From positions 3,782,001-3,846,000 of the forward strand of contig NZ_FNSC01000001.1 of NCBI RefSeq assembly GCF_900105355.1: 64,000 nt of DNA. The letters are read 5' to 3'. The first letter of the stretch is position 1. The number at the start of each line of letters is the position of its first letter. The stretch comes from Pseudomonas anguilliseptica (GTDB lineage: Bacteria; Pseudomonadota; Gammaproteobacteria; Pseudomonadales; Pseudomonadaceae). The notes below the pieces were generated by a model. That model did not search any database. It saw nothing but the letters and a program-made list of their open reading frames with translations, and had not been told where the DNA came from. Both the position numbers and the translations under genes were made by a program. Below are positions 40,255 to 62,934 of this stretch, piece after piece.

Positions 40255-40270
40255 GACGCTCTGTCACTGG
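40255..40270 (-). promoter_or_regulatory. Late-region element, reverse copy
   Basis: GACGCTCTGTCACTGG on the plus strand matches the reverse complement of the forward copy at 40292-40307 in 15 of 16 bases. The two form a large inverted repeat with a 21-base centre. Confidence 0.7.
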
Positions 40271-40291
40271 GAAAACGGTTGCAAGGCCGTG

Positions 40292-40307
40292 CCAGTGACA
40301 TAGCGTC
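40292..40307 (+). promoter_or_regulatory. Late-region element, copy 1
   Basis: CCAGTGACATAGCGTC in the gap before the holin gene, the head of the lysis/late region. Confidence 0.7.
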
Positions 40308-40429
40308 ATCGGCAAGGGGATAGCCCCGCCGAGTCGCCGCCTGGCGGCAGTGTGTGACCAGTTCAAGGAGTCGGCCTGTGACCCAAGCCGCACACGAAAT
40401 ATCGATTCGCCTCCCCGGGGGCTACCCCA

Positions 40430-40699
40430 ATGAGTAACACCATGGCTGATAAGGCGATGAATGCCGCCAGCTACGGTGGTGCTGCCGTATCTGTCACATC
40501 AGGCCTGACCCTGACCGAGTGGGGCGTGATAGCCGGTATCGTCACGGCGATCGTTACGCTGCTGGCCAACCTGTTCTACCAGTGGCGCAAAGACCGCCGC
40601 GAGCATGAGTTGTACCGGCTTGAGCTGGAAATGCGCCGGGCTGATGCCCGCTATGCAATGTCCAGCGCCTGCAGTGTCAGGGAGCCCATCGATGAATAA
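40430..40699 (+). CDS. Class II holin
   Basis: 89 residues. Two hydrophobic segments (YGGAAVSVTSGLTLTEWGVI and AGIVTAIVTLLANLFYQW) are followed by a charged tail KDRREHELYRLELEMRRADA, as in HP1-type holins. It should form membrane lesions or depolarise the membrane and so trigger the SAR endolysin encoded by the overlapping next gene. Confidence 0.88.
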   Translation: MSNTMADKAMNAASYGGAAVSVTSGLTLTEWGVIAGIVTAIVTLLANLFYQWRKDRREHELYRLELEMRRADARYAMSSACSVREPIDE

Positions 40700-41213
40700 G
40701 CGCAGCTACCTCTCTGCCGCAGTGCTGGCCCTGGTCATGGCGGGTGCTTCGGCGCCGGCCATCATGGACCAGTACCTGCTGGAGAAGGAAAGCAGCGGCA
40801 TTACGCCGCTCAAGGCCTACCAGGATGGTGCGCGGATCTGGACTGTCTGCGACGGCAAGACCGAAGGGGTTACCCGTTCCACGGTGATGACCAAGGCTCA
40901 GTGCGATGCCTGGCGCCAGACCGAAATCGGCCAGCGCCTGCAGCACGTCCACTCGATCATCAAAGTGCCCATGAGTGAGCCCGCCTGGGCTGGCGTGGGC
41001 AGCTGGTGTTTCAACGTGGGCAACACTGGGTGCGCGAAGGCCACCACCGTGAAGCTGATCAATCAGGGCCAGCAGGCCGCCGGATGCAAGGCGATTCTGC
41101 ACTGGCGCTTCATTACCCGTGACGGCAAGAAGGTCGATTGCTCTACCAAGCAGCCTTATTGCACCGGTTTGTGGGACCGGCGGAACGGAGAAGCGGAGCT
41201 GTGCGCGCTATGA
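40692..41213 (+). CDS. SAR endolysin, lysozyme family GH24
   Basis: 173 residues. The N-terminal weakly hydrophobic helix (SYLSAAVLALVMAGASAPAI) is a signal-anchor-release segment with no cleavage site. The catalytic triad region EKESSGITPLKAYQDGARIW then TVCDG has Glu33, Asp45 and Thr51; the Glu-Asp distance is 12, three more than usual. Seven further Cys suggest disulphide control. It overlaps the holin gene by 8 bases. Confidence 0.88.
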   Translation: MNKRSYLSAAVLALVMAGASAPAIMDQYLLEKESSGITPLKAYQDGARIWTVCDGKTEGVTRSTVMTKAQCDAWRQTEIGQRLQHVHSIIKVPMSEPAWAGVGSWCFNVGNTGCAKATTVKLINQGQQAAGCKAILHWRFITRDGKKVDCSTKQPYCTGLWDRRNGEAELCAL

Positions 41214-41590
41214 CAATCGACCCTGTGCGCTGTATCGCCCTGCTGCTGGTTTCCGTGCTGAGCGTGGCAACTGGCTGGCAGGTCCGTGACTGGAAGGCTG
41301 GCAGCGATGAAACCGCCCGCCTGGAGCGAAAAGCCGAGGCTGATGCCATGGCCCGCGAACTCATCGCCGGTGTGGCCGAGAAGACCCTGGCCGCCATCGA
41401 CGGCATCAAGGTGGTGAACACCACCATCTACCAGAAGACCCGCCATGAAATTACGCGCGACCCTGTTTACGTTGATTGCCGCATTCCTGCTGACGGGGTG
41501 CTGCTCATCAACGACGCGAGATCCGGTGCTGATCGATCAGGCGCTGCTGCGCCCGTGTCCGGATCTTCCTCAACTTCAGCAGGCCGATGA
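41210..41590 (+). CDS. Rz-like spanin, inner-membrane subunit
   Basis: 126 residues from ATG 41210 (ATGA overlap). N-terminal TM helix (CIALLLVSVLSVATGW) followed by a helical periplasmic domain (SDETARLERKAEADAMAREL). It pairs with the lipoprotein encoded inside its own gene. Confidence 0.85.
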   Translation: MTIDPVRCIALLLVSVLSVATGWQVRDWKAGSDETARLERKAEADAMARELIAGVAEKTLAAIDGIKVVNTTIYQKTRHEITRDPVYVDCRIPADGVLLINDARSGADRSGAAAPVSGSSSTSAGR

Positions 41591-41702
41591 CGGCACCGCC
41601 GCCATGGGTGAGCTGGTCCTGGCCGATGTCGCCAGTTCCGGGCAGTACCTTGAGTGCCAAAGGCTGCACCAGGGGCTGATCGAAGCGGTAAAAATCAAGT
41701 AA
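41445..41702 (+). CDS. Rz1-like spanin, outer-membrane lipoprotein
   Basis: 85 residues, embedded in another frame of Rz and extending past it. Lipobox LLTGC near residue 19. It completes the spanin that disrupts the outer membrane at lysis. It is larger than lambda Rz1 (60) but typical for overlapping spanins. Confidence 0.87.
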   Translation: MKLRATLFTLIAAFLLTGCCSSTTRDPVLIDQALLRPCPDLPQLQQADDGTAAMGELVLADVASSGQYLECQRLHQGLIEAVKIK

Positions 41703-41719
41703 CCGACAAGGGGGCTTCC

Positions 41720-42052
41720 ATGTCAAAGCGTCAAGTTTACCTTCCGCATGAGCTGCGATCCGGCCGTACCGTATTCATCGTGACGGCCGACTACTGCATT
41801 GGCCAGGGGCCCAGTTACGGCGTTGCGGAATACCTGATCACCAGTGCGCGTGAGCCGCAGCCAGAGTCCGGCACTCGCCACCCATACCGCATGCACCCGA
41901 AAATCGCAGCGTATGCACACGATGTGACCGACCTTTTCCGCACTCGGCGCGGTGCTACGCGAGAAGCGGCACGCCGTCAGGCCTGTGATGCCCGACAAAT
42001 CGCACAGCGCAACGCCGTGAAGGCAACAATGCGCCGGGGGATGTCCAAATGA
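41720..42052 (+). CDS. Hypothetical phage protein
   Basis: 110 residues from ATG 41720, basic C-terminus rich in Arg (ATREAARRQACDARQIAQRN). Possible nucleic-acid contact. It overlaps the next gene by four bases. No family recognised. Confidence 0.65.
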   Translation: MSKRQVYLPHELRSGRTVFIVTADYCIGQGPSYGVAEYLITSAREPQPESGTRHPYRMHPKIAAYAHDVTDLFRTRRGATREAARRQACDARQIAQRNAVKATMRRGMSK

Positions 42053-42486
42053 ATCAGGACGACACCCAGCTGAGCGCCGAGCAGGTCGCCAATTCGCTCC
42101 AGGGCAAAACCCTGGCTGAGATCTTCGACGAAGGTCCGCGCAAGCTATTCATCACGCGCAATATCCCCGGGCATGGCACTTACCGCCTGTACATCAGTCG
42201 CCCGTTTGGCGTGGTTAAGCCTGCCGGCCTGCGCTGGCGCGTGCAGATCAATGTCCAGTACGAGGGCAAGGAAGAGCTGCACAGCGTCAATGACGGCGTG
42301 ATCATTGTCCCGCTGGTCATGCTCGGAGCTGTCATCGTCGACGCTGATGAGCAGATGAGCGAGCACATCAAGGCTAATCGCCAGGTTGCCGCCCAGGTGC
42401 GCCGTGAGGCCATGAAGGCGCTGCAGCCGGAGGCGTTGGTGGTTGAGCCCATGACCATGGGGCGCCAGGGTGTGCTAGATGCCTGA
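42049..42486 (+). CDS. Hypothetical phage protein
   Basis: 145 residues, unrecognised. A beta-rich middle (GTYRLYISRPFGVVKPAGLR) is followed by a hydrophobic strand VIIVPLVMLGAVIVDA and a helical tail. It overlaps the small terminase gene by 8 bases. Confidence 0.65.
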   Translation: MNQDDTQLSAEQVANSLQGKTLAEIFDEGPRKLFITRNIPGHGTYRLYISRPFGVVKPAGLRWRVQINVQYEGKEELHSVNDGVIIVPLVMLGAVIVDADEQMSEHIKANRQVAAQVRREAMKALQPEALVVEPMTMGRQGVLDA

Positions 42487-43090
42487 GCAGAAAGCCCAGG
42501 CCCCGGCTCCAGACTGGGAGCGCATCGGCATTGATTACCGCGCAGGCATCTTGTCTGTGCGCGAGATTGCCGCTGCGCACGGGGTAAGCCATACCGCCAT
42601 CCAGAAGCGCGCCAAGGCCCATGGATGGGAGCGTGACCTAAAAGCCAAGATCCAAGCCAAGGCTGACGCACTGGTTGCCAAGCGCGAGGTTGCCAGCAAG
42701 GTTGCCACGGTAGACGCGGCAACCGAGAAGGGGATTATCGAGGGTGTGGCAACTGCCGTGGCTGACATTCGGATGTCGCACCGCACGGATATTCAGCGGT
42801 CCAGGCGCCTGGCCAACAGCCTGCTGGATGAGCTCGAAGGCCTCAGCGACAACCGTGAGCTGTTCGCGCAACTGGGTGAGCTGCTGACAGATCCTGAAGC
42901 TGACCGCGACACACTGAGCGAGCTGTACCACAAGGTCATCGCGTTGCCAGGCCGGTCGAAGGTGCTCAAGGAAATGTCCGACACCTTGAAGACGCTGGTT
43001 GCCCTGGAGCGCCAAGCCTACAGCATGGACGAGCAGCAGCACGATGAGCCGTATGAGGCGCGACTGAAGCGGCTGATGGGTGAGGACTGA
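42479..43090 (+). CDS. Terminase small subunit
   Basis: 203 residues. N-terminal helix-turn-helix (LSVREIAAAHGVSHTAIQKR) with AKAHGWERDLKAKIQAKAD after it, then a helical oligomerisation region, as in P22/SPP1-like small terminases. It recognises the packaging start. Unusually the large subunit is 4.4 kb downstream, with tail-fibre-like genes between. Confidence 0.85.
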   Translation: MPEQKAQAPAPDWERIGIDYRAGILSVREIAAAHGVSHTAIQKRAKAHGWERDLKAKIQAKADALVAKREVASKVATVDAATEKGIIEGVATAVADIRMSHRTDIQRSRRLANSLLDELEGLSDNRELFAQLGELLTDPEADRDTLSELYHKVIALPGRSKVLKEMSDTLKTLVALERQAYSMDEQQHDEPYEARLKRLMGED

Positions 43091-43093
43091 AAG

Positions 43094-43130
43094 CGCGCCA
43101 CACTTTTGGTAATGCGCAAAACGTGGCGCG
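43094..43130. repeat. Inverted repeat after the small terminase gene
   Basis: CGCGCCAC and GTGGCGCG arms (8 bp, perfect) around a 21-base loop. It could be part of a pac/cos region or an RNA structure; no function is shown. Confidence 0.6.
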
Positions 43131-43137
43131 AACAAAT

Positions 43138-43164
43138 AAGCCTGGCCCTGTGCTGGGCTTTTTC
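43138..43164 (+). terminator. Weak intrinsic terminator after small terminase
   Basis: AAGCC...GGCTT with an inner GCCC/GGGC and a run of five T, upstream of late-element copy 2. Confidence 0.65.
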
Positions 43165-43182
43165 ATGCCTTGCCATCGCTAC

Positions 43183-43198
43183 GCAGTGACATAGCGTC
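43183..43198 (+). promoter_or_regulatory. Late-region element, copy 2
   Basis: GCAGTGACATAGCGTC, 35 bases before the start of the gene at 43234. Fifteen bases are identical to copy 1. Confidence 0.7.
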
Positions 43199-43233
43199 AC
43201 CCGGCATTAGGAAATAACCGAGGCACAACCCCC

Positions 43234-43836
43234 ATGGCTCCTGAAGTCGAGTTGACGATAGTTCGCGGCAAAACGCTGGAGTTAGCGTTTCAGTACGCCG
43301 ACGAAGAGCTGCTATACCGGCCAATAACTAGCATGCCGAGCAAGGCACCTGTTCGCCTGGGCTCTGCGACACACGGAATACCTGACGGCTGGCCTGTGCG
43401 TATTGAGTCAGTTTCTTCGCCAGCTGAACTCAATACGCCAGAAGGCGAATCAATAGCAGCCAAGCGTGTAGATGCCGACACGATTGAGTTGAACTCAGAA
43501 AATGGCAGCACCTGGCGCAGCTTATCAGCGGGAGGCGTGCTGGTATTCAATACGCCGGTGGAGCTGGCTGGCTGGCAGGCACGCGCTGCCGTGCGTGATC
43601 GAGTTGGCGGCACCCTGCAGTTCACTTGGGACTCCAATGCACTGAATACCCCTGATGCGCTCATTACGGTCGACCTGGCCGCGCACGCTTTCGTGCTGCA
43701 CATGAGCGCAGACCAGGCTGCAGCCCTGACCTGGAGCAAAGGCGTGTGGGAGTTGGAGGCGATTGATCCTACCGGCCGCGTCTATCAAGTGATCGGCGTC
43801 AGCAAAGTGATGGTCAGCAGCGAGGTGGTCATCTAG
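43234..43836 (+). CDS. Tail-fibre-module protein (hypothetical)
   Basis: 200 residues. Beta-rich, low in charge. The first half (VELTIVRGKTLELAFQYADE) and the closing WELEAIDPTGRVYQVIGVSK resemble small baseplate or fibre-linked proteins of phages. First gene of a block ahead of large terminase. Confidence 0.65.
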   Translation: MAPEVELTIVRGKTLELAFQYADEELLYRPITSMPSKAPVRLGSATHGIPDGWPVRIESVSSPAELNTPEGESIAAKRVDADTIELNSENGSTWRSLSAGGVLVFNTPVELAGWQARAAVRDRVGGTLQFTWDSNALNTPDALITVDLAAHAFVLHMSADQAAALTWSKGVWELEAIDPTGRVYQVIGVSKVMVSSEVVI

Positions 43837-44180
43837 TGGGCCTGCTTACAGTGCGCGGCTCCGGCGATGGCCGGGTGGTGATTGTTGCTGACCGCAGCAG
43901 CTCGCGCGTGGTTGCAGGCCTTCGCCAGCAGACTTCAACAAAAGCTGTGATCGCCGCAGGGCAGCGGGGCGCACCGGGCGCCAGTGCAGCTGCATATCAG
44001 CACAACCAGCCGTCAGCGACAGACACCTGGATCATCAACCACAACCTTGGCTATCGGCCAGTGGTTGGGCTTTTCACTGTGGGCGGTGTGCTCATGCTGG
44101 CCAACGTGCAACACATCGACACCAACCAGGCTCGCGCCTTCTTCGACGGGCCGGTTGCCGGCTATGCCGTCTGTTCCTAA
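43836..44180 (+). CDS. Small tail-fibre-module protein with collagen-like turn
   Basis: 114 residues from GTG 43836, one base overlapping the previous stop. GQRGAPGAS looks like a short collagen-type triplet run. It is followed by DTWIINHNLGYRPVV, a motif common in tail-fibre tip domains. Probably structural. Confidence 0.65.
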   Translation: MGLLTVRGSGDGRVVIVADRSSSRVVAGLRQQTSTKAVIAAGQRGAPGASAAAYQHNQPSATDTWIINHNLGYRPVVGLFTVGGVLMLANVQHIDTNQARAFFDGPVAGYAVCS

Positions 44181-44195
44181 CAGGAGTAACACCCT

Positions 44196-44987
44196 ATGAC
44201 TCTTGACGTTCAAACCAGCCTGGATATGGGCAGTGCCCGTAAAATCCTCAACTTGCCAACGCCAACCAACCCCGGCGATGCGGTACCCAAGTCATACGTC
44301 GACTCAGCTGTAGAGGGTTTGTCGTGGAAGGACAGCGTGCGCGTGGCGGCGCAGGTCAACGTAACGGTAGCGTCACCTGGGGCATCCATCGACGGCATCG
44401 CCATGGTGGCCAACGACCGGGTGTTGCTGGGTAACCAGACCAGCACCCCGGAAAAGGGCATCTATATCTGGAACGGCGCAGCGGTCCCAATGACTCGCGC
44501 CCTCGATGCCAGCACCAGTGATGAGCTGGAAAACGCCGTGGTTGGCGTCGAAGAAGGCACCAGTGTTGGCACGACCTACCGTCAGACCACCGTTAATTTT
44601 GTGCTCGGCACCGGCAGCCCAGTGTTTACCACGTTCGGCACCAGTGCCCCTGCGGCGAGCGAGGCCACGGCGGGCATCGCCGAGATTGCCACCCAGCCAG
44701 AGGTCGATGCGCTTACCGATGACGCACGGTTTATCACGCCGCTGAAACTGGCCAACTGGTCCGGGCGCAGCAAGAAGTTCTCGCAGGTAATCGGCGATGC
44801 CGCGGCCACCAGCATCACTGTGACGCACAACCTCAACAGCCGCGATGTACATACCGAGGTCTACCGAAACTCGGGCAATTACGACTCGGTGATGGTGGAA
44901 ACCCGGCGCACATCGGTCAATGCGGTGACCCTGGTGTTCGACAACGCGCCGGCGCTTAACTCCTTCGTTGTTGTGGTGCGGGCATAA
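44196..44987 (+). CDS. Tail-fibre-like protein
   Basis: 263 residues. TNPGDAVPKSYVDSAVEGLS with WKDSVRVAA is a signature of phage tail-fibre repeats; ITPLKLANW near residue 185 is another. The C-terminal domain (TSITVTHNLNSRDVHTEVYR) resembles the NHNLG domain of the previous protein. Likely receptor-binding apparatus. Confidence 0.78.
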   Translation: MTLDVQTSLDMGSARKILNLPTPTNPGDAVPKSYVDSAVEGLSWKDSVRVAAQVNVTVASPGASIDGIAMVANDRVLLGNQTSTPEKGIYIWNGAAVPMTRALDASTSDELENAVVGVEEGTSVGTTYRQTTVNFVLGTGSPVFTTFGTSAPAASEATAGIAEIATQPEVDALTDDARFITPLKLANWSGRSKKFSQVIGDAAATSITVTHNLNSRDVHTEVYRNSGNYDSVMVETRRTSVNAVTLVFDNAPALNSFVVVVRA

Positions 44988-44990
44988 CCA

Positions 44991-45785
44991 ATGGCTACGG
45001 AAGCGCAGGGTGATATCCAGCTGGGCGGGCTGAGCGCCTTCTACGACCTGGTAGCGCTCGCGCCGCCTGCCGCAGGTGCACTCAACCTTAATGCGCCGCA
45101 GGAAACGGTGGTTGTTTCGCTCGATCAGAACGTAACCGCCATCACCATGCCGGCCGGCGTTACGGGGCGCGCCCTGAACAAACGCATCGTGTTCGTGCAG
45201 ACCGGCGCCGGCAACTTTACCGTGGCCGGATGGGCAGCAGCAGGCGTTGCTGTTGAGGGCAATGCGCCCGAGCCGGCACTGGCCACCGGGGCCGGCGCTG
45301 TCACCGAGATTATCCTGACGAATGTGCATAACCAGGGATGGCGCATGTACATCGACACGTCGGGATCAGCCACCTATGGCGAGGCAAACACGGCCGCCAA
45401 TATTGGCTCCGGCTCTGGCATTTACGAGGGCAAGAGCGGCGTACAGCTGCGCTTCAAGTCACTGAAAGCCGGTGCCGGGGTAACCCTAACGCCCGATGCA
45501 GACAGCATCACCATTTCCGCCGATGGTGGTGGGGGCGGCGGATCTGGTGACGTTGTGTCGACCAGCCTTGGCGATATGGTTTTCGGTACAGGTAGCGCGC
45601 CGTATGGTGCGCCGGTTGGCGCTTCACTGATCCAGCAGTCCTATAACAGCGTTGAGCAGACGATCATCGTGCTTGGCATCGTTGATTTCAGTGACGTGGC
45701 GAGCCAAACCACCGGCATGCAGATCGGCTATGCCACGACAAGCAACACGCTCGTTTATCGCTATTACAGACAGGAGCCCATCTAA
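44991..45785 (+). CDS. Tail-fibre-like protein
   Basis: 264 residues. Thr/Ala/Gly-rich beta structure. A segment GIYEGKSGVQLRFKSLKAGA followed by GVTLTPDADSITIS is typical of trimeric fibre stalks. A seven-Gly hinge precedes the C-terminal domain. It ends one base into the next gene. Confidence 0.75.
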   Translation: MATEAQGDIQLGGLSAFYDLVALAPPAAGALNLNAPQETVVVSLDQNVTAITMPAGVTGRALNKRIVFVQTGAGNFTVAGWAAAGVAVEGNAPEPALATGAGAVTEIILTNVHNQGWRMYIDTSGSATYGEANTAANIGSGSGIYEGKSGVQLRFKSLKAGAGVTLTPDADSITISADGGGGGGSGDVVSTSLGDMVFGTGSAPYGAPVGASLIQQSYNSVEQTIIVLGIVDFSDVASQTTGMQIGYATTSNTLVYRYYRQEPI

Positions 45786-46387
45786 TGGCCTACGGATGGA
45801 GTACTTGGATGGCAGTGACCGCTGCGCCACCAGCGAAGGCGGACAGCTCGGAAGCGCTGCTGGGCACAAACGATACGAAATACATCACCCCGCTTGGGCT
45901 GGATGCTGTGCTTGATGTGCGCCTGCCGCTGGCTGCAGTCATCAAGCGGATGACGGCCACACAAGCCAGTAGCTCGACGACTCCAGCGAACATCACCGAG
46001 CTATTCGCAGCGATGGAGGCGAATGCGGTCTACGAGGTTGAGGCTTTTGTTACCTTTCAGAGTGCGGCGACAACCACCGGCCTGGGCCTTGGGTTTACGT
46101 CGCCGACCGGCTGCAGGCCGCAGCTTGAAATTACTGTGCCGATCACCTCGACGGCGGCAGCATCACAGTTTCGTACTATCTTCCCGAATGCGACGGCACT
46201 GGAGTCTGGCGAAGTGCTGAGCACGGGCGTAACCGCCATCAACAGCAACCACACGGCGCATGTCCGAGGCGTTATTGCCAACGGGGCAAATGCCGGCAAC
46301 TTCCAGCTGCGCTTCCGTAGTGAGGTGGCAAGCTCTGCCATTACGCTGCAGATCGGCTCGACGCTGATCCTCCGCAAAATCGGGTAA
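45785..46387 (+). CDS. Tail-fibre tip-like protein
   Basis: 200 residues. It opens with a fibre-like segment (GTNDTKYITPLGLDAVLDVR) and closes with a beta-rich domain (TTTGLGLGFTSPTGCRPQLE and onward) similar to phage fibre tips. It is the last gene before the beta-propeller protein. Confidence 0.72.
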   Translation: MAYGWSTWMAVTAAPPAKADSSEALLGTNDTKYITPLGLDAVLDVRLPLAAVIKRMTATQASSSTTPANITELFAAMEANAVYEVEAFVTFQSAATTTGLGLGFTSPTGCRPQLEITVPITSTAAASQFRTIFPNATALESGEVLSTGVTAINSNHTAHVRGVIANGANAGNFQLRFRSEVASSAITLQIGSTLILRKIG

Positions 46388-46394
46388 CGTAACC

Positions 46395-47357: not shown

Positions 47358-47448
47358 CCCCCCTGTAGGGGGCGCCTGATAAAATAATTCCAGCATCCAC
47401 CGCTGAAAAGTATGCACTGACCAAAGCGCAGGCATAGACGAAAGATGT

Positions 47449-47464
47449 CCAGTGACATTGCCTG
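47449..47464 (+). promoter_or_regulatory. Late-region element, copy 3
   Basis: CCAGTGACATTGCCTG, 27 bases before the large terminase start. The core AGTGACAT is conserved and the right half diverges. Confidence 0.6.
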
Positions 47465-47491
47465 CCCAGCATCACACCTGGGCACTGCTTT

Positions 47492-49036
47492 ATGTCGCAA
47501 GAAACCGATCAGTACCTGTCGCGCCTGATGGCTGATGACGAACTGTACTGCGCCAAGAATCTGAAGATCCGCGACAAAAACGGCGAACTGCATTCGTTCA
47601 TCTGGAATGAAGCGCAGCGCATGCTGCATGACCTGGTGGAGAAGCAGAAAGCCCAGCGCGGATGGGTGCGGGTACTGGTGCTGAAGGGCCGGCAGCAGGG
47701 AATCAGTACTTGGACGGCGGCCAGGTTCTACAAACGCACGTCGATGCAATTCGGCAAGCGCACCATGATCATCACCCACCTCGATGCGGCTACGCAGAAC
47801 CTGTTTGGCATCGCCAAAACCTACTTCGATCTGAGTGACGACACGCTGAAGCCTGCGGTAAAGGCCAACTCAGGAACGGAGCTGTCATTCTCGACGCTGC
47901 GCAGCGGCTACAAGGTGGCAACCGCCGGCAGCAAGAACGCCGGCCGATCGGACACGGTTCAATACCTGCACGGGTCCGAGTTCGCATTCTGGCCCAACGC
48001 CATCAACATCATGGCCGGCCTTGGCCAGACGGTTCCGCTTCTGCCCGGTACCGAGGTGATACTGGAGTCGACAGCCAACGGGCTGGCGAATATGTACCAC
48101 AAGATGTGGGTACTGGCCGTTGCTGGCAAGTCTGACTACCTGGCAGTTTTCATCCCCTGGTTCATCCAGAAAGAGTATCGCCGCGAAGTACCTGCCGACT
48201 TCGAACTGACCGCAGAAGAAGTCGAATACATGGAGGCCTTCGGGCTTGACCATGAGCAGATGGCTTGGCGTCAGGCCAAGATCTCAACCGAGTTTGCGGG
48301 CGATTCTGCTTGGTTTGACCAGGAGTACCCAGCCACGCCAGACATGGCCTTCCAGCGCGTAGGGCACCGGGCAATCGTCAATACCCTGGCCGTGGCCAAG
48401 GCTCGCAAGATCAATCCTGCTCACCTGAAAGCCATGGGCGCCCATGTGGTTGGTGTCGACCCAGCACGCTTCGGCGATGACGACACGGCAATCATCCACC
48501 GACAGGGCCGAAAGGCTTGGGGCCTGAGGAAAATTCACGGCTACGACACCATGCAGGTGGCCGGCGTAGTGGTCCGCATGCTTGAGGATGACAAGACCAT
48601 CAAGATGGTTTTTATCGACATTGGCGGCCTTGGTGCGGGCGTCTATGACCGACTGATTGAACTCGGCTATGGCGATCGCGTCACCGCGGTCAACTTCGGC
48701 AGTAGCGCTTCTGACGAGCGCAAATACTTCAACAAGCGCAGCGAAATGTGGGGGGAGGCTGCCGAGTGGATCGCAGACATCATCACGCCATGCCTGCCAG
48801 ATGACGACGGCCTGCACGCAGACCTTACAGCCCCAGGTTACAGCCACAGCTCAAACGGCCAGATCAAGCTCGACTCCAAGGAGAAGATCAAAAAGGAACT
48901 CGGAAAGTCACCAGACGCGGGCGATGCCTTAGCGCTCACTTTTGCTTTGCCAGTTGCTTCCAGTGACATAGAGATACCCGCATGGAAGCGGCGCCTGATG
49001 TCAGGACGAAGCCGAAAAACAGCGATGAGTGCGTGA
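47492..49036 (+). CDS. Terminase large subunit
   Basis: 514 residues. ATPase domain: Walker A-like VLKGRQQGIST near residue 65, and HGSEFAFWP near the Walker B region. Nuclease domain: VGVDPARFGDDDTAII near 320 with catalytic Asp residues and FIDIGGLGAGVYDRL near 380. It powers DNA packaging with the small subunit and cuts the concatemer. Confidence 0.93.
   Translation: MSQETDQYLSRLMADDELYCAKNLKIRDKNGELHSFIWNEAQRMLHDLVEKQKAQRGWVRVLVLKGRQQGISTWTAARFYKRTSMQFGKRTMIITHLDAATQNLFGIAKTYFDLSDDTLKPAVKANSGTELSFSTLRSGYKVATAGSKNAGRSDTVQYLHGSEFAFWPNAINIMAGLGQTVPLLPGTEVILESTANGLANMYHKMWVLAVAGKSDYLAVFIPWFIQKEYRREVPADFELTAEEVEYMEAFGLDHEQMAWRQAKISTEFAGDSAWFDQEYPATPDMAFQRVGHRAIVNTLAVAKARKINPAHLKAMGAHVVGVDPARFGDDDTAIIHRQGRKAWGLRKIHGYDTMQVAGVVVRMLEDDKTIKMVFIDIGGLGAGVYDRLIELGYGDRVTAVNFGSSASDERKYFNKRSEMWGEAAEWIADIITPCLPDDDGLHADLTAPGYSHSSNGQIKLDSKEKIKKELGKSPDAGDALALTFALPVASSDIEIPAWKRRLMSGRSRKTAMSA
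48960..48975 (+). promoter_or_regulatory. Late-region element, copy 4
   Basis: CCAGTGACATAGAGAT inside the 3' end of large terminase, about 60 bases ahead of the portal start. Confidence 0.55.
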
Positions 49037-49037
49037 A

Positions 49038-51173
49038 ATGACAGGCAAGCCCACCGAGGTTATGAGCGATAGCGCGCTGGCGACTGCCAACTGGAATCGC
49101 TACGAGTACGCCAAGCGGCGCGGCCACGACACCTATTGCGCCACTGCCCGCAAGTGCGAGGACTTTTACCTGGGCGGCGGCCGTCAGTGGTCCGCGGAAG
49201 ATCTTGAAGTGCTGGCCGAGGCCGGTCGCCCCGCGCTTGAGTTCAACCAGATCAAGCACAAGCTCAACACGGCGATTGGGTACCAGATCCAAAATCGCAT
49301 GGATATCAGCTTTCGCCCGCGCGGCCGAGGCGCTGACGAGGATCTAGCCAGCGTTCTATCGAAGGTCGCCATGCAGGTGGCCGACAACACCAAGTTGCAC
49401 TGGCTTGAAACCCAGGTGTTCAGCGACGGCATGATCCAGCAGCGCGGCTACTTCGATCTGCGCATCAGCTACCGCGACTCGATGCTGGGCGAGATCACCA
49501 TCGAAGATCTCGACCCGATGGACGTAATGCCTGATCCGGACGCCAAGAGCTACGACCCGGATAAGTGGCAGGACGTGACCGTTACGCGCTGGCTGACCTA
49601 CGACGACATCGAAGAGCTGTACGGGACTGTTGCTCGCCAGAAAGCCGAAAGCGAGCAGTCTGACGACGCTGATTTTGGCGACGACGAGGAAGAGGGCGAG
49701 GCCCGGTCAAAGTTCGGCGGCGACACCGGCGGCGTTGACCGCATGGACACCAGCACCATGACCGACGGGACACGCCGCGTGCGAGTTATTGACCGTCAGT
49801 TCTGGCGCATGGAGAAAACCAAGGTCGCTATCAGCATGACGGGTGATATTCGGCCCGTTGGCCACTTGAAGGACGATCAGGTTGCAGCGCTTAAAGGCGT
49901 GGTTGTGGCTGATCGCCGCATTCGCCGCGTGCGCTGGCTGATCACTACGCGCTCAGCGGTACTGCATGACGATTGGTCGCCGTTTGAGCACTTCACGGTG
50001 GTTCCGTTCTTTCCGTTTTTCCGCCGCGGGCAAACGGTTGGCCTGGTGGATGACGCTATTGGCCCGCAGGAACTGCTGAACAAGTCCATGAGCCAGTACC
50101 TGCACACAGTAAATACCAGTGCAAACAGCGGCTGGATCAGCTGGGCAAACACGATTGCCAACATGCGTGATGAGGATCTATCCGATCGCGGGGCCGAAAC
50201 GGGCCTGCATATTGTGCTCAAGAAGGACACCCCGAACCACCAGGTGCCGCAAAAGATTCAGCCAAACCAGGCGCCAACAGGTATTGATCGGATGATCGAG
50301 CGGGCTGGGGCCATGCTGTCCGAGGCTACCGGCGTGAATGACGCCATGAGTGGCGACCCGGGCAAGGAAGTCAGCGGCCTGGCCATTCAGGCCAAGCAGT
50401 TTGCCGCTCAGCAGGGGCTCGCAGTTCCACTGGATAACTTGGCGCGGACTCGCAACATGATGGGCTCGCGCATCCTGAAGCTGATCCAGTCCTTCTACGA
50501 CACCCCGCGCATCATCCGCATCACCGACAAGGCGCCGAACGGCAAGCCGACCACGACTGAGCTGCAGGTGAACGTGCCGGACGAAACCGGCGGCGTGCTG
50601 AACGACCTGACGATTGGCGAGTATGACGTCGTTGTCGCTGAGGTGCCGATGCAGGTCACCTTCGAGAACGGTCAGTTTGAGCAGGCGCTGAACATGCGCG
50701 ACAAGGGAGTTCGCATCCCTGACAAGTCGATAATCATGCACAGCAACCTGGCGGATAAGCACGACATCCTTGAGCAGATGGAGGGCGAGGCGCCGCCGGT
50801 AGATCCAACGCTTGAGGCCAAGGCCAAGCTAATGGGCGCCCAGGCTGATCTGGCCGCCGCCAACGTGACCCGCATCCAAAATGAGGCTGTGAATCGCGCT
50901 GTTGAAGCGCAATTCAGCGCAATCCAGACCGCCGGCGCTATCGCGACAAACCCGCAAGTCAGCGGGCTTGGCGATGCCCTTCTGCGCTCGGCCGGGTATG
51001 TCGACCGCGACAGCTCGCCAATTATCCCGCAAGCGGCCGCAGCACTTCAGGCGGGCGGCGGGCTGGGTGACTTTCCGCAGAACACCAATCCATCGACCCC
51101 AGTGAACCCAGCAAATCCGGCGGTTGGGCTGAATGCTGGGATCGAAACCAAGCAATTCGAAGGAGCAGCGTAA
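49038..51173 (+). CDS. Portal protein, P22-like
   Basis: 711 residues. Core region LEFNQIKHKLNTAIGYQIQN and DPMDVMPDPDAKSYDPDKWQ are typical of the P22-type portal family, whose 12-mer forms the DNA channel. An acidic insertion (SDDADFGDDEEEGEARSKFG) lies near residue 215. Long C-terminal helices form the barrel-like end. ATG 49038 was chosen; GTG 49029 overlaps the terminase stop. Confidence 0.9.
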   Translation: MTGKPTEVMSDSALATANWNRYEYAKRRGHDTYCATARKCEDFYLGGGRQWSAEDLEVLAEAGRPALEFNQIKHKLNTAIGYQIQNRMDISFRPRGRGADEDLASVLSKVAMQVADNTKLHWLETQVFSDGMIQQRGYFDLRISYRDSMLGEITIEDLDPMDVMPDPDAKSYDPDKWQDVTVTRWLTYDDIEELYGTVARQKAESEQSDDADFGDDEEEGEARSKFGGDTGGVDRMDTSTMTDGTRRVRVIDRQFWRMEKTKVAISMTGDIRPVGHLKDDQVAALKGVVVADRRIRRVRWLITTRSAVLHDDWSPFEHFTVVPFFPFFRRGQTVGLVDDAIGPQELLNKSMSQYLHTVNTSANSGWISWANTIANMRDEDLSDRGAETGLHIVLKKDTPNHQVPQKIQPNQAPTGIDRMIERAGAMLSEATGVNDAMSGDPGKEVSGLAIQAKQFAAQQGLAVPLDNLARTRNMMGSRILKLIQSFYDTPRIIRITDKAPNGKPTTTELQVNVPDETGGVLNDLTIGEYDVVVAEVPMQVTFENGQFEQALNMRDKGVRIPDKSIIMHSNLADKHDILEQMEGEAPPVDPTLEAKAKLMGAQADLAAANVTRIQNEAVNRAVEAQFSAIQTAGAIATNPQVSGLGDALLRSAGYVDRDSSPIIPQAAAALQAGGGLGDFPQNTNPSTPVNPANPAVGLNAGIETKQFEGAA

Positions 51174-51375: not shown

Positions 51376-52446
51376 ATGAACCGTACCACTCTGGCACTGG
51401 CTATCGCTGCAGCATCCGGCGTGCTCAACATGAGCGACGACATCGACCCTGAGCTGCTTTACCAGGGCATTGAGGAAGAGGAAGAGGAAGAAGAAGAGGA
51501 CGACGACGAGGATGGCGATGACCTTGAACTCGATGATGACGGTGACGCGGATGATCGTGGTGACAACCTTGATCCAGACCTGCCGGCCGATGATGACCTC
51601 GACGAAGATGATGACGAAGAGGAAGAGGGCGACGAAGAGGAAGAGTCTGCCCTGAGCGATGAGGACGCAGCTTTGCTCGCTGAGCTGGCCGGCGATCCGA
51701 AGAAGTCCGGCATGGTCCCGCACTCTCGCTTCAATGAAGTGAACAACGCTCTTAAAAGCGAGCGCGCAGAGCGTCTTCGCCTTGAAGAAGAGTTGGCGCG
51801 TAGCCGTGGACAAGCCAAGCCTGCGGAAGAAGTGAAGCCGGAGCCGGCGCCAGCCGCGTTCGACTTCGATGATGCCGAAGACCGTTATGCAGAGGCGCTG
51901 CTGGAAGGCGACAAGGCGCTCGCTAAGGCGATTCGTACCGAGATCCGCACCGAAGAGCGCAAACAGTACGTCATCGAAGCCCAGCAAACCGTGCGCGAGC
52001 AGACACAGCAAGAGCGCGACGAGGCGGCTGCGGCCCAGCAGAAGGCTGATATTGGCGCAGCGGTGAATGCGGCCTATGCCAAGTATCCAGTCTTGGACCC
52101 GTCCAATAACGCGCACGACTCCGAGGCGCTACTGGATGTGGTAGCGCACCGCGACTTGCTCATCAGCAGAGGCATCCCGCCAGCAAAAGCAATCGCCCAG
52201 GCGGTCGAGCGGATCGGTTCTCGTCTTGAACCTGCGACCAAGCCTAAGCCTGGAAAGCTGGAAATGACCCGCGATCAGCTGGATCGTAATTTGGATCGTG
52301 AGAAGCAGATTCCGGCGCGGACTGGTGGAATCGGCGAGCGGAGCAAAGCGATCGACTACGCCAGCCTGACCGATGATGAATACGACAAGCTGAGCGATGA
52401 CGAGCGGCGCGCGGCCCGCGGCGACTTTGTGTCGAAAAAGAATTGA
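51376..52446 (+). CDS. Capsid scaffolding protein
   Basis: 356 residues. Extremely acidic low-complexity stretch (residues about 32-95, mostly Glu/Asp), then long helices with Ala/Glu/Gln and a charged C-terminus, the usual scaffold composition. It sits between portal and major capsid as expected. AAGGGG precedes the ATG. Removed or released after capsid assembly in related phages. Confidence 0.82.
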   Translation: MNRTTLALAIAAASGVLNMSDDIDPELLYQGIEEEEEEEEEDDDEDGDDLELDDDGDADDRGDNLDPDLPADDDLDEDDDEEEEGDEEEESALSDEDAALLAELAGDPKKSGMVPHSRFNEVNNALKSERAERLRLEEELARSRGQAKPAEEVKPEPAPAAFDFDDAEDRYAEALLEGDKALAKAIRTEIRTEERKQYVIEAQQTVREQTQQERDEAAAAQQKADIGAAVNAAYAKYPVLDPSNNAHDSEALLDVVAHRDLLISRGIPPAKAIAQAVERIGSRLEPATKPKPGKLEMTRDQLDRNLDREKQIPARTGGIGERSKAIDYASLTDDEYDKLSDDERRAARGDFVSKKN

Positions 52447-52456
52447 CCGTTAAAAA

Positions 52457-52472
52457 GCAGTGACATAACCAG
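52457..52472 (+). promoter_or_regulatory. Late-region element, copy 5
   Basis: GCAGTGACATAACCAG, 10 bases after the scaffold stop. It is followed by a hairpin GCCCCG/CGGGGC (about 52485-52507) in a 265-base gap before the capsid gene, where no convincing gene is seen. Confidence 0.6.
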
Positions 52473-52711: not shown

Positions 52712-53815
52712 ATGGCCGCTACTAACTTTGCTCGCCTGAACAGCAAGCAGAAAATCGTCTGGTCGCGCGATGTGTGGAAGGCCGCACGCGATCAGATGTT
52801 TGTGAAAAAATTCCTGGGTAATGGCGCAACCGCCATGATCCAGCGCATCACTGAGCTGACCAAGGATGAGCGCGGCGAGAAGGTGCTGATGCAGCTCGTT
52901 GCCGATCTGGTCGAAGACGGCGTGGTGGGCGACGACGAGCGCGAAGGTAACGAAGAAGAGCTGCAGAACTTCGAAATCGAGCTGAACATCGACCTGATTT
53001 CTCACCAGGTCCGCAACAAGGGCAAGATGTCCGACCAAAAGTCGGTGATCAATTTCCGCGAAACGGCCCGCGATCGCCTGGCTCACTGGCTCGCAAACCG
53101 TATCGACCAGCTTGTTTTCCTGACGCTCTCCGGCATTTCGTATGCCTTCCAGTGCAACGGGAAACCCCGTGTTGGGTCGCCGTTCCCATCGCTGTCCTTC
53201 GCCGCCGACGTGACTGCCCCCTCGTCCAAGCGCGGGATGATGTGGAACGGCACCAACCTCGTCACCTCCAACACCGCAACCATCACCAGCTCGTTCACTG
53301 CGAGCTACAAGATGATCGTTGACGCTGTTGCCTACGCCAAGGACCACTACATCAAGCCACTGATGAACGGTGGCAAAGAGTATTACGTCCTGCTGGTTAA
53401 GCCCGGCACCCTGGCCCAGCTGAAGAAGGATGCTGACTATCAGCGCGCCATCGTCAACCTGGCGCTGAAGGATGGCGCGAACAGCCCGTTCTTCACCGGC
53501 GGCACCGTCACCATCGACGGCGCAATCATCCATGAGCACCGCCTGGTGTACAGCACTACTGGCGCCGCATCCGGCTCTAAGTGGGGCGCTGGCGGCCTGG
53601 TGGATGGCACTCGCACCCTGCTGTGTGGTGCTCAAGCCCTCGGCTTCGCTGAAATCGGCACCGGTGACTGGGTAGAGAAACGCTTCCAGTACGACAGCCG
53701 TGTGGGTATCTCGGTCGACAAGATGTTCGGTTTGCTCAAGCCGAAGTTCTACTCGATCTACGACGAATCGATCGAAGACTTTGGCGTTCTCGCCATCGAC
53801 CACTTCCTCGGCTAA
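52712..53815 (+). CDS. Major capsid protein (N4 gp56/DUF4043 type)
   Basis: 367 residues. Opening MAATNFARLNSKQKIVWSRD, then KKFLGNGATAMIQRITELTK, matches the capsid family that includes N4-like gp56. Central PGTLAQLKKDADYQRAI and the ending SIEDFGVLAIDHFLG are also conserved there. Strong ribosome site TAGGAGAG upstream. It forms the icosahedral shell on the acidic scaffold. Confidence 0.9.
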   Translation: MAATNFARLNSKQKIVWSRDVWKAARDQMFVKKFLGNGATAMIQRITELTKDERGEKVLMQLVADLVEDGVVGDDEREGNEEELQNFEIELNIDLISHQVRNKGKMSDQKSVINFRETARDRLAHWLANRIDQLVFLTLSGISYAFQCNGKPRVGSPFPSLSFAADVTAPSSKRGMMWNGTNLVTSNTATITSSFTASYKMIVDAVAYAKDHYIKPLMNGGKEYYVLLVKPGTLAQLKKDADYQRAIVNLALKDGANSPFFTGGTVTIDGAIIHEHRLVYSTTGAASGSKWGAGGLVDGTRTLLCGAQALGFAEIGTGDWVEKRFQYDSRVGISVDKMFGLLKPKFYSIYDESIEDFGVLAIDHFLG

Positions 53816-56563: not shown

Positions 56564-56564
56564 T

Positions 56565-57083: not shown

Positions 57084-57092
57084 GGAGTCACC

Positions 57093-57533
57093 ATGATTAA
57101 GCTCAGCACCAAACTGCGTGAAGACATTGCTATCGGCGGCTCTTTGAAGTCATTGCTTGATGGCGGCCTGGTTAAGATCTACTCGGGCGCTGTTCCGGCC
57201 TCTGCCGATGCCGATCTGGGCGCTGCCGTTCTGCTGAACACGATCAGCGCGGGGGGCGCTGGAACGCCTGTTACTTTCAACGCCGCTGCACCAGGCGGCG
57301 TGTTGTCCAAAACCACCGCCGAGAACTGGACCGGCAACAATGTGGCGGGCGGCACGCCGACCTTCTTCCGCTATGCCCTGGCCGCCGATGATGGCTCGGC
57401 CAGCGTTACCGCACGCCGCATTCAAGGTACGGCTGGCGCCCTTGGCAGCGATATGTTCATTGGTACGCTGCCGATGGTGCAGGGCGCGCCGCAGTCGTTC
57501 CAGCTCTTTCAGCTTGCAGTGCCTGAGCAATAA
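57093..57533 (+). CDS. Virion structural protein
   Basis: 146 residues, Ala/Gly/Thr-rich and beta-rich (FRYALAADDGSASVTARRIQ). It follows the previous gene by 9 bases. Likely tail component, not recognised. Confidence 0.62.
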   Translation: MIKLSTKLREDIAIGGSLKSLLDGGLVKIYSGAVPASADADLGAAVLLNTISAGGAGTPVTFNAAAPGGVLSKTTAENWTGNNVAGGTPTFFRYALAADDGSASVTARRIQGTAGALGSDMFIGTLPMVQGAPQSFQLFQLAVPEQ

Positions 57534-57536
57534 CCA

Positions 57537-59438: not shown

Positions 59439-59439
59439 C

Positions 59440-60378: not shown

Positions 60379-62204
60379 TGCTGGTTACTGGACGCTCAGC
60401 AACCGGCATGGGGGCGCGCTGGGTTAAGCGGGCAATGCAGATGGCGCGCCGGTTACTGGCCGCCAAGCTGCGTTACGACAGCAAGCATGAGGTTGTGGAC
60501 GGCTACCTGTTGAGCGCCATACGCACCAACACTCGCGCACGCGGTACGGTGCTGGATTTGCCGCAGCACGTCCTATGCCCGAACCTTGCCCGTGGGTCAG
60601 TAGGTTCCGGCAGCTTAACCAGTGAAGGCTTGAGCTTCCCGTCCACTGTTCGGGACTTGTGGCAGCCCGACTACCTGCCCGACATAACAGACCCCAAGCT
60701 GCCGACACTCAAGCATGAGGCATGGCGCCTGGCGACGAACAGGGGCTACGCATTCGGGGGCGAGGGCGCTGGATGGGGGCAAGTGCTATCAAGCGGAGCT
60801 GCCGCCAACGTGCCCTATGGCGATGGGATCGGAACAACTGTGCATCAAGTGAATAGCCTTGGTGATACGGGTTTCTACAACGCCGAATCGCCATCGTTGC
60901 AGCGGTTCTTTACGCGGTTTTGGGCGAGCTGGGTCAGCGCCGATCAAGAGACTGTGCTTGCTGGCGACTCAATACCTATTAGCGAAAAGCACACCAAGGC
61001 CATCATGTTTGATACGGCCTTTGTGGACACCCTTGCGAATGGATGGGTGGCTATTCCACGCGCCTCACCCGAGTTCACCCCCGCCAACCCCCCGGCCTGG
61101 AACAATCTTGTTGGAATATGGGGCCGCTCTTACCGCATCAAGGCGGTTGAGCAGAGCGACACCCCGGCTGCCGTCAAGTATGTGATGCTCGCTCGGCTGT
61201 TTAATGATGGTGTGAATGGCGCTTCCTCCAAGCCATACCATGAGGCTGGTGCTGTGCTGGTGGCCACTTCTGAGGTGTCAGCCATCCTGGTTGAAGGCGA
61301 TTATCAGCACGCCGGCAGCCTGCTTGGCGCGCAGGTCTACAGCACCGCGCGGCCCTCACGGTTTCGTTCGCCCGAGGCATGCGCGGTCACCGATGGTGTG
61401 CATGTACTGCTGCACGCCGACGTTATTCGCGACGAGCAAACGCCTGACCTGCTGTTTGGCGAAAACACCTATACCGTGGTCTGTGCCAAGGCGGTCGGTG
61501 ACGGCATTGCGCTGAGTTTTTTGGCGATTGATCGGGACAACGACACCAATGCCAGTCGGCAGTTTTATGGCGGCGCCTCCCCGGACGGGGTGACCAGTTA
61601 CTTTCTATACCCAGCTTTCAATCAGGGCTCGCCCATGATGAGCGTGCTGGCCTGTAACGGCGCATCCGTCACGTTGACCAATGTAGCAACCCAGGCGCCA
61701 TTCCAGCTTCCAAGTTGGGGCTACACCGCCACGACGGGCCTGGTCTGCCATATCGGCGCCGGGAGACTTGGTTTTGTGGTCACGCTGGCTGCTAAGCCGG
61801 AGGGCAGCGATCTGTCCGTCACACCGTTCGATGTAACCTTTTGCACCTACAACACCTTGACTGGTGCCGTTGAAATCATAGGCCAGATAGCTTTGGCCAC
61901 GTTGCTCTATGTGCCTGGCTATCCCTGCACCGCAGGAGGTATCGGCGCAATCACGGTAGTACAAGAAGAAGTGCTGAACGATGTAGGCGAATTGCTGACC
62001 CGCGCCGTGTTGCTCTGGACCACCAGTAGCGGTCTGAACGCAGGTGCAGGCGGGAAAAACTTCGTCGGGGCCACCTATATCAGTTACGACTCGGGCGCGT
62101 CGTGGCACTCAATCAGTGACACCGTGGGCGATTTCCGAGGTGTTGTATTCGTAGGTAGCCAGTTGCGCCCGGTTACCCCTGGACACGCTTGGTTCGCACC
62201 TTAG
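60378..62204 (+). CDS. Large tail/virion protein, unrecognised
   Basis: 608 residues. A basic N-terminus (MGARWVKRAMQMARRLLAAK) leads to a long beta-rich body. Near the end, VGATYISYDSGASWHSISD contains a BNR-like Asp-box (S-x-D-x-G-x-S-W), the kind found in sialidases and other beta-propellers. It may therefore be a propeller-type tail protein. Confidence 0.6.
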   Translation: MLVTGRSATGMGARWVKRAMQMARRLLAAKLRYDSKHEVVDGYLLSAIRTNTRARGTVLDLPQHVLCPNLARGSVGSGSLTSEGLSFPSTVRDLWQPDYLPDITDPKLPTLKHEAWRLATNRGYAFGGEGAGWGQVLSSGAAANVPYGDGIGTTVHQVNSLGDTGFYNAESPSLQRFFTRFWASWVSADQETVLAGDSIPISEKHTKAIMFDTAFVDTLANGWVAIPRASPEFTPANPPAWNNLVGIWGRSYRIKAVEQSDTPAAVKYVMLARLFNDGVNGASSKPYHEAGAVLVATSEVSAILVEGDYQHAGSLLGAQVYSTARPSRFRSPEACAVTDGVHVLLHADVIRDEQTPDLLFGENTYTVVCAKAVGDGIALSFLAIDRDNDTNASRQFYGGASPDGVTSYFLYPAFNQGSPMMSVLACNGASVTLTNVATQAPFQLPSWGYTATTGLVCHIGAGRLGFVVTLAAKPEGSDLSVTPFDVTFCTYNTLTGAVEIIGQIALATLLYVPGYPCTAGGIGAITVVQEEVLNDVGELLTRAVLLWTTSSGLNAGAGGKNFVGATYISYDSGASWHSISDTVGDFRGVVFVGSQLRPVTPGHAWFAP

Positions 62205-62240
62205 CTATGCGATGACGCAATTTGTAATGGAGTGTTGGCG

Positions 62241-62900
62241 ATGGCAATTCTGTTTGACGACACGTTCGGTGATCACCCGGACGGTACATTTCTAGGGGAT
62301 TACCCCATACCAAAGTGGGAGAACACCCCCGGACTGGGTTACGGGCTGGGGCTAGAGCATCTACGGGTAGATGGGGGGTGGGTTAGGCCCGTATATGTCT
62401 CATCGCCCCAAGGCAGCGTAGGCTCTTACTATGATTACATAACCCCGATTGGGCCTCCTGGGTGGGGAGAGGTTACCGGGGTAGCGCTTGAAGTGAAGTT
62501 CGACTGGTCGAACGAGACTCGCGGCGTCCAGGTGGTAGCCCGTAGCGGCGATACCACAACATATCTGTGTAGTCTGAACCACCAAGGGGTTACCGGGTTC
62601 CGCCTGTACATAGGCAGCAACGCTTACGTCATCCCCCCAGTTACCCAAGGGATTGCTGCCGAGCTGCGTGTAGAGGTCGCAGGATCGCTTGTAAGCGTAT
62701 TCGTGGACGACGTACTCCAAGGGACTTCACTACTGGCTCCTTTTGCCGGCGCGGTGGCCATTAAGATAGCTAGTGATACCCCATCTCCATTCACTGGCGA
62801 TGGTCTACTTAGTGTCGGGCGTATTTCGGTGTACGGCGCCACACCACCGGAACCATCTGCGTTCTGGACGGCGCTGCGCGATACAAGCGAATCCGTCTGA
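62241..62900 (+). CDS. Jelly-roll/LamG-like tail protein
   Basis: 219 residues from ATG 62241 with GGAG eight bases upstream. It opens LFDDTFGDHPDGTFLGDYPI and has VSVFVDDVLQGTSLLAPFAG, a pattern common in concanavalin-like carbohydrate-binding domains. Possible glycan-binding role, inferred from the fold pattern. Confidence 0.6.
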   Translation: MAILFDDTFGDHPDGTFLGDYPIPKWENTPGLGYGLGLEHLRVDGGWVRPVYVSSPQGSVGSYYDYITPIGPPGWGEVTGVALEVKFDWSNETRGVQVVARSGDTTTYLCSLNHQGVTGFRLYIGSNAYVIPPVTQGIAAELRVEVAGSLVSVFVDDVLQGTSLLAPFAGAVAIKIASDTPSPFTGDGLLSVGRISVYGATPPEPSAFWTALRDTSESV

Positions 62901-62918
62901 TTCGATTGCGTCTGTCCG

Positions 62919-62934
62919 CTAGTGACATAGCGTT
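62919..62934 (+). promoter_or_regulatory. Late-region element, copy 6
   Basis: CTAGTGACATAGCGTT, 32 bases before the start of the gene at 62967, about the same spacing as copies 2 and 3. Confidence 0.65.

Follow-up and report, generated by a model that had tools for sequence, protein, structure and literature searches.

A recurring promoter-like element ahead of the late genes of a Pseudomonas anguilliseptica prophage, and a 67-residue phage protein that may activate it

The stretch of Pseudomonas anguilliseptica DNA analyzed here (NCBI RefSeq assembly GCF_900105355.1, contig NZ_FNSC01000001.1, positions 3,782,001 to 3,846,000; 64,000 nucleotides, hereafter the window, with coordinates counted from its first base) carries a prophage in which a short element recurs ahead of the late genes. 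We investigated this element together with its candidate reader, the 67-residue helix-turn-helix product of gene 39729 (39729..39932, plus strand). The early arm of the prophage encodes cI, a CII-like protein, a winged-helix protein, replication proteins, a NinB-like protein (a weak Pfam match, E 0.039), YbcO and a VRR nuclease, and then gene 39729, which thus ends the rightward early operon, the position of Q in lambda and lambdoid phages. Facing it on the minus strand is the gene for a conserved 96-residue protein (39933..40223), which is transcribed towards 39729 and ends one base from its end. The late genes follow on the plus strand: holin and endolysin (40430..41213; phrog_20 and phrog_7), the large terminase subunit (47492..49036; phrog_2, E 1.3e-29), the portal protein (49029..51173; phrog_156, E 1.1e-111) and the major head protein (52712..53815; phrog_334, E 7.7e-88), with a small terminase and further virion proteins in their neighborhood.

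A sequence-only reading of the window had listed seven copies of the element, and a scan with the core AGTGACATAGCG, at zero to two mismatches, recovered all of them: 40294, 43185, 47451, 48962, 52459 and 62921 on the plus strand, and 40257-40268 on the minus strand. The scan returned 12 matches in the 64 kb, against 4.05 expected and at most nine in 100 shuffled sequences; five of the 12 fall outside the set of seven. A scoring matrix was then built from the sites of other phages, leaving the window out, and applied to every position on both strands of the 64 kb. Exactly these seven copies ranked first to seventh, with scores from 35.3 down to 20.3; 57629 on the plus strand came next, at 14.4. 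This eighth-ranked site (CGTGACACAAAGT, with TTGCG upstream) lies inside gene 57537 and is perhaps a weak internal promoter or a chance match. The exact 12-mer has three occurrences in the whole genome (5.23 Mb), each of them in this prophage. With one mismatch it occurs at ten places, five in the prophage and five elsewhere (69 for the reversed control word), and TTG-N12-AGTGACAT occurs eight times, four in the prophage and four elsewhere (control, 0).

Two copies form a divergent pair at the lysis-gene side, an arrangement that related phages share. On the plus strand, the candidate late promoter of the lysis cassette (40279..40306; rank 1) has TTGCAA, the box AGTGACAT at 40294 and the -10 TAGCGT, with the box 136 nucleotides upstream of the holin start. 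Its minus-strand partner (40256..40284; rank 5) has TTGCAA at -16, the box AGTGACAG at 40261-40268 and GAGCGT as -10, in which the first T is replaced by G; it faces the 96-residue gene, in line with the earlier claim that the reverse copy stands before the minus-strand gene. As speculation, a longer transcript from this promoter could run antisense into 39729 and act as a brake. The third-ranked copy, before gene 43234 (43170..43197), has TTGCCA, its box at 43185 and TAGCGT, and a terminator-like hairpin (43144-43159) lies closely upstream. At the same copy we considered a palindrome, GTGAC-N5-GTCAC, and rejected it as it is absent from most other copies. Ahead of the large terminase gene, the copy at 47451..47463 (rank 7) has the box AGTGACAT without a TTG, and the putative portal promoter (48947..48974; rank 2), which lies within the end of the terminase gene, has TTGCCA, its box at 48962 and TAGAGA. 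Ahead of the capsid gene (52443..52471; rank 6) we found TTGACC at -16, the box at 52459, which is 253 nucleotides upstream of the major capsid gene at 52712, and TAACCA as -10. The last copy (62906..62933; rank 4), with TTGCGT, its box at 62921 and TAGCGT, precedes the last late gene (62967), which extends past the window. That every copy stands at a gene boundary held for six of the seven; the exception is 48962, inside the last 75 nucleotides of the large terminase gene. By the gene calls, then, one copy in seven is intragenic, and the motif does not occur just as often inside genes as between them. An operator of cI was also considered, and was rejected since no top-ranked site lies near the repressor gene.

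The same layout recurs among related phages. In IMG/VR contigs that share a related portal or the motif, a divergent pair stands before the lysis genes, further copies precede the fibre, terminase, portal and capsid genes, and most of these phages carry several copies each. For a profile of the element we used the 8-mer AGNNACAT as the sole criterion and obtained 122 non-identical sites, taking for each phage the variant commonest downstream of the protein gene. Each distinct 60-nucleotide context was counted a single time, L191 and L192 were excluded as little of their downstream DNA was available, L190 and L193 entered on one copy each, and L155, L170, L178, L193, L194, L203 and L204 were flagged as duplicates; clustering at <70% identity left 91 dissimilar sites. 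Numbering from the first A of the box as position 0, the 122 sites share, outside the 8-mer, TTG at -15 (96 sites) or -16 (17 sites), C at -1 (83%), A at +8 (79%) and T at +12 (90%). Of the 91 dissimilar sites, 83 have TTG at -15 or -16 and 85 have T at +12, whereas TTG turns up at 0.9% of the other positions in these stretches; neither feature entered site selection. By box type, TTG is present in 18 of 22 TG, 52 of 52 TC, 6 of 6 CC and 7 of 11 GG sites, and TANNNT starts at +7 in 67 of 91. The shared architecture is that of a predicted sigma-70 promoter, TTGCC-N16/17-TAGCGT, with a variable phage box in the spacer that touches the -10. A Shine-Dalgarno-like word followed by a start codon lies within 88 nucleotides of 57 of the 91 sites, at a median of 45 nucleotides from the box, and terminator-like hairpins occupy the 60 nucleotides upstream of 17 of 122 sites but the 60 nucleotides downstream of only 2 of 122. 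The promoter architecture in 91 dissimilar copies, the hairpins upstream and the translation signals downstream all support the suggestion, made from the window alone, that these are phage late promoters.

Searches that presupposed no box gave mixed results. Among Markov-corrected 8-mers, the box or an overlapping word was in the best six for L153 and L175 and not for L165 and L173, while de novo 12-mer counts were swamped by GC-rich words. In the early regions the element is scarce: the early halves of 39 phage loci (351 kb) contain one bipartite site. No TTG-N12/13-AGNNACAT site was found in L135, L136, L137 or 42 kb of Acidovorax phage AP1, all of which carry related terminase or portal genes, and KPP25, a portal relative of which 40 of 64 kb were scanned, has two unlike single matches and no set of boxes. 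The profile of the 67-residue protein likewise matched none of the five whole control records, KPP25 included, at E 0.01 (L137 is a 10.8-kb fragment), an empty answer that alone proves little. An IMG/VR pattern scan with CAGTGACATAGCGT returned 109 stretches, by a rough estimate not above chance, some of which are relatives.

Each phage has one main box variant, and the variants differ between phages, which argues for a factor encoded by each phage. In G284, a relative from the genus, the variant AGGGACATAG occurs at six sites (seven by the 8-mer), of which one has T in place of C following the second AG; in G086, another genus relative, AGTCACATAGCC occurs in two copies. The 67-residue protein varies along with the box. 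Its predicted recognition helix spans residues 37-45 (WDTVRQRRY), and residues 38, 41, 42 and 45, whose spacing of i, i+3, i+4 and i+7 would place them on one face of the modeled helix, differ between box classes. Proteins with R41-Q42 go with the box AGTGACAT, those with Q38-K/R41-M42 with AGTCACAT, those with N38-K41-M42 with AGCCACAT and those with D/E38-K41-K42 with AGGGACAT. Under a fixed scoring rule applied to 38 protein representatives, 26 had a single best box, and all 26 agreed with residue 42 (the fourth base is G for five Q and four K proteins and C for 17 M proteins); of the others, two tied (L182, L209) and one disagreed (L235). In a pairwise comparison of 32 phages, several of them near copies, no box is shared by any of the 272 pairs with different residues at position 42. 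Of the 224 pairs with the same residue 42, 51 differ in box, all of them pairs of the three N38 with the seventeen Q38 phages. Phages whose terminases are only 26% identical have a box in common if they agree at residue 42; AGTCACAT is found on two unrelated backbones, and so is AGGGACAT.

Of eight stretches added afterwards, two (L254, L259) had already been assessed. L257 and L258, from another genus and nearly alike, each have AGGGACAT twice behind TTGACA; their helix, WETVKKRVQRG, was determined after the sites and fits the KK class. L252 and L253 (WETVRKRRYRG, a class without a firm prediction) carry AGTGACAT preceded by TTG, some 4 kb away from the gene on its upstream side, and L255, whose homologue is interrupted, has AGTCACAT just before it.

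The protein also keeps company with the element. Its homologues adjoin the element in L081, L106, L077, L037, L094, L134/L045, L147 and L144, and at the satellite-like locus L152 the two are 1.5 kb apart. We conclude that the product of 39729 very probably reads the box, as the sequence-only reading had proposed; the conclusion draws on co-occurrence and on covariation between box and helix. Alternatively, the reader of the box could be a different phage factor, for instance the 96-residue product, or a host factor, with 39729 merely traveling along. The 96-residue gene is indeed conserved beside the divergent pair, with homologues 29-43% identical at many related phage loci (and no NCBIfam match). 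Yet no 96-residue homologue was detected at loci that have the box and the helix-turn-helix protein without a late module, and the box changes with the helix residues. The exact 13-mer occurs 16 times in 199 genomes of the genus, against 12 for the control, and at this near-control level no host regulon is seen. Nor was an RNA polymerase or sigma factor recognized among the ten early proteins scanned. We therefore regard a different reader as improbable.

The 67-residue protein itself belongs to no family that we could name. It matched nothing in Pfam (at E 0.1 and 1), PHROGs or NCBIfam, its profile matched no PDB chain sequence, and named phage records contained no protein match to 39729 or to the homologue at L165 and no DNA match to 39000-49000. 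An AlphaFold model has two strands forming a beta hairpin and helices at residues 26-32 and 37-45 (mean predicted local distance difference test score, 76; predicted template-modeling score, 0.53). A search with a seven-sequence alignment found 41 IMG/VR loci with a homologue, and a closer alignment found 23 loci in an 84,980-species collection, in Pseudomonas, Stutzerimonas, Azotobacter, Halopseudomonas, Thiopseudomonas and 'gamma proteobacterium L18'. By profile search, 17 of 398 genomes sampled from the family have a match, and two of 293 in the order sample, namely the genome of the window (E 5.9e-25) and one weak match; L207, where the match is cut off, was excluded from the protein table.

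Taken together, we favor, at a probability of roughly 70%, the reading that the copies are sigma-70-type late promoters switched on by the 67-residue phage activator bound at the spacer box. Each copy would combine a TTGCC-like -35, a spacer of 16-17 base pairs and a poor, TAGCGT-like -10. The activator-binding site would be the box of 8-9 base pairs, CAGTGACAT, at about -20 to -12, upstream of the -10 and overlapping it; the predicted target of the protein from the window is CAGTGACATAGCG. The protein would bind this asymmetric box, presumably as a monomer, beside the -10 and would help host RNA polymerase to open the weak -10, with transcripts starting about 19 nucleotides after the first A of the box. 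In this way the lysis, fibre, terminase, portal, capsid and last virion genes might be turned on together. Activation is the most likely sign of regulation because the -10 is poor, because a sigma-70 consensus scan of 39.5-53 kb found no promoter, and because the box abuts the -10.

Several observations weigh against this proposal. Spacer sites serve repressors and Q-type antiterminators too. No significant solved relative of the protein emerged from a PDB fold search. Nine of the 38 representatives had no scored box, although four of them (L162, L196, L213, L214) have the expected variant outside the rule, and some of the nine have a box elsewhere or a near match. In L256, whose helix is R-M, 18 kb contain no bipartite site. 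L216 and L220 are both S38, yet have the boxes AGTCACAT and AGCCACAT, so that residue 38 is not the whole story. On the terminase tree the box label needs five changes; independent helix/box switches are therefore few, and the strength of the covariation lies in the concerted change at several sites per phage. The terminator-like hairpins of the window number 13, not above the 11.3 expected by chance. Lastly, an inverted repeat lies directly behind the terminase-copy box in all eight RQ-class phages, with four different stems. If transcription starts near +19, the left arm of this repeat would lie outside the transcript from the terminase promoter, and the activator model does not explain it. 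In the window this is the hairpin at 47463-47484, between the box and the start codon, which is listed as terminator-like; inverted repeats occupy the same place in L153, L154, L156, L158, L159, L160 and L161. The hairpins of the terminase copies mostly have no T run.

The terminase hairpin bears on a second mechanism, in which the protein is an antiterminator like Q or AlpA that loads at the spacer box onto a paused polymerase and carries it past terminators without raising initiation. The gene sits at the Q position, and in two reports (PMC6606751, PMC9371919) the Q and AlpA sites are likewise placed between -35 and -10, with AlpA binding as a single molecule through a helix-turn-helix. Such a mechanism would lead one to expect a -10-like pause element and a terminator downstream of the start. 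Between +13 and +69, no single position has strict TANNNT in more than 2 of the 91 sites or the looser -A---T in more than 8, and terminators are far commoner in the 60 nucleotides upstream than in those downstream, as given above. Moreover, 67 residues leave little room for the ring at the RNA exit channel that 21Q and AlpA form, and with many promoters and short leaders antitermination would be unnecessary. A degenerate pause element together with the terminase hairpin leaves room for antitermination, which we nonetheless consider unlikely.

The sequence-only reading also raised the idea that the copies serve as linkers for recombination between modules. Six of the seven copies do lie between modules, and the phage group is mosaic (in L144, holin and endolysin are 83-91% identical and the portal 55%). 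Within the terminase reading frame, however, the putative portal promoter reads TTG CCA, three varying codons and AGT GAC ATA in eight of eight RQ-class phages, four of which are near copies, and this run of codons occurs in none of the 19 other aligned terminases. Over 19 late genes, AGT accounts for 38 of 439 serine codons and ATA for 32 of 297 isoleucine codons. The codons kept in the RQ-class terminases indicate that the DNA itself is conserved, beyond the protein. A linker would not be expected to have promoter architecture, a fixed strand, kept codons inside terminase or covariation with a protein, and we consider this explanation highly improbable.

Homologues of the protein also occur outside phages of this type. 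At some loci the protein is present with no detected homologue of large terminase, portal or capsid, though several of these loci, spanning only 3-5 kb, are too short to be judged. Among 26 loci outside a phage late module (the same elements appear twice as L185/L205, L201/L223 and L208/L224), 15 have a matching box 28-48 nucleotides before the protein gene; phage loci have no matching box there, and L179 and L188 have unlike 8-mers. Only one of the 15 own-gene sites (L195) has TTG at -15 or -16, and L185, L202 and L216 have a second AGTCACA beginning 18 nucleotides upstream. A conserved ATCTGGA(C/T), near the expected start, was also observed about 17-26 nucleotides downstream of the box in L185, L206, L209, L210, L212 and L216.

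A box just before the protein's own gene is what autorepression would produce, and operators often overlap the -10 and spacer. The protein could accordingly be a repressor that covers spacer and -10 and is lifted late by something else. But a poor -10, TAGCGT, and the lack of a sigma-70 consensus promoter in 39.5-53 kb would leave little to repress, and 14 of the 15 own-gene sites have no TTG at -15 or -16, three of them having the second AGTCACA instead. Own-gene sites mostly without TTG are as expected of a site that needs activation. The gene, moreover, closes the lytic early operon and is not a neighbor of the cI repressor gene. We judge repression decidedly unlikely.

The satellite-like element of Pseudomonas marincola (L196:8392-20135 with L250:9678-13500; G042:C18) is the only one that was followed over its full length. 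It is about 15 kb long and encodes an integrase, a KilA-N protein, a DUF927 primase, a small terminase, the activator homologue and a 488-residue homologue of the last late gene of the window; no large terminase, portal or capsid was detected in it. Related primases occur in L201, L208, L209, L212 and L214, and a small terminase lies downstream of the protein gene in L196, L206 and L212. From this gene content we infer that the satellite-like elements are probably satellites of these phages. In three genomes (P. californiensis, Pseudomonas sp. A-1 and Pseudomonas sp. M47T1) a phage and a satellite-like element have the same box, AGTCACAT (L198/L210, L200/L201, L204/L205); as this is the commonest box, the sharing is weak evidence. 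Two further observations concern these elements. At L209:12974-13924 a gene for a BstA abortive-infection protein (phrog_6287, E 2.5e-92) adjoins the activator homologue, and behind the primase genes of L196, L208, L209, L212 and L214 lie clusters of GTGGCAAC / GTGGGAAC / GGGGGAAC / GGGGAACA on both strands, perhaps replication iterons.

Phage activators that serve several late promoters are already known as a kind, and the same element ahead of several late modules is what we found here. GcrA-type activators bind between -35 and -10, near the -10, and act with sigma-70; they are far larger than 67 residues, and the protein described here is phage-borne and matches no GcrA family in Pfam. Ogr acts from sites well upstream of the -35, whereas the box here lies in the spacer and covaries with the helix. 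P4 delta is a homologue of P2 ogr, and both serve the late genes of phage and satellite, according to PMC8628076; as proposed here, a small phage protein activates late promoters and a satellite carries its own homologue, but the 67-residue protein has no match in Pfam to the zinc-binding domain of Ogr/Delta. Mu C (PMC4461284) is one activator for four late promoters with a non-consensus -10, which resembles the present case, and binds upstream of the -35; the box here abuts the -10, downstream of TTG in 83 of 91 sites. Lambdoid Q and P. aeruginosa AlpA share with our protein a helix-turn-helix, a site between the -35 and -10 of sigma-70 promoters and the Q gene position. The AlpA site is GGGACG at -25 to -20 (PMC9371919, PMC6606751), against about -20 to -12 for the box here, where there is no fixed pause element, leader terminators are rare and there is little room for a ring. 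Over the helix-turn-helix, L173 (E 6.5e-5) and L165 (E 0.015) weakly resemble the DNA-binding tails of phrog_3377 HNH endonucleases, with the similarity falling at the C terminus of an HNH protein from an Enterococcus phage; there is no nuclease domain here, and the window protein itself is unmatched. A single-subunit phage RNA polymerase was not found among the scanned prophage proteins, a scan that covered part of the genes.

A search of the open-licence literature did not find this element, its protein family, the position of the box or a readable pairing of helix and box. We suggest, tentatively, that these proteins may form a new Pseudomonadaceae family of miniature activators (~55-110 residues) that would act at the spacer next to a late -10, with a specificity set largely by residues 38, 41 and 42, and that satellite-like elements sharing protein and box could make this a code of compatibility between helper and satellite. 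If this is true, a helper phage of the same helix class could switch on a satellite, and the reverse, and the code would predict which phage could activate which satellite. It would be a natural protein-DNA recognition code that runs across separate phage backbones and satellite-like elements. A family of small proteins would gain a probable job and a testable target, and the late genes of a group of podovirus-like prophages of Pseudomonadaceae may be switched on without Q.

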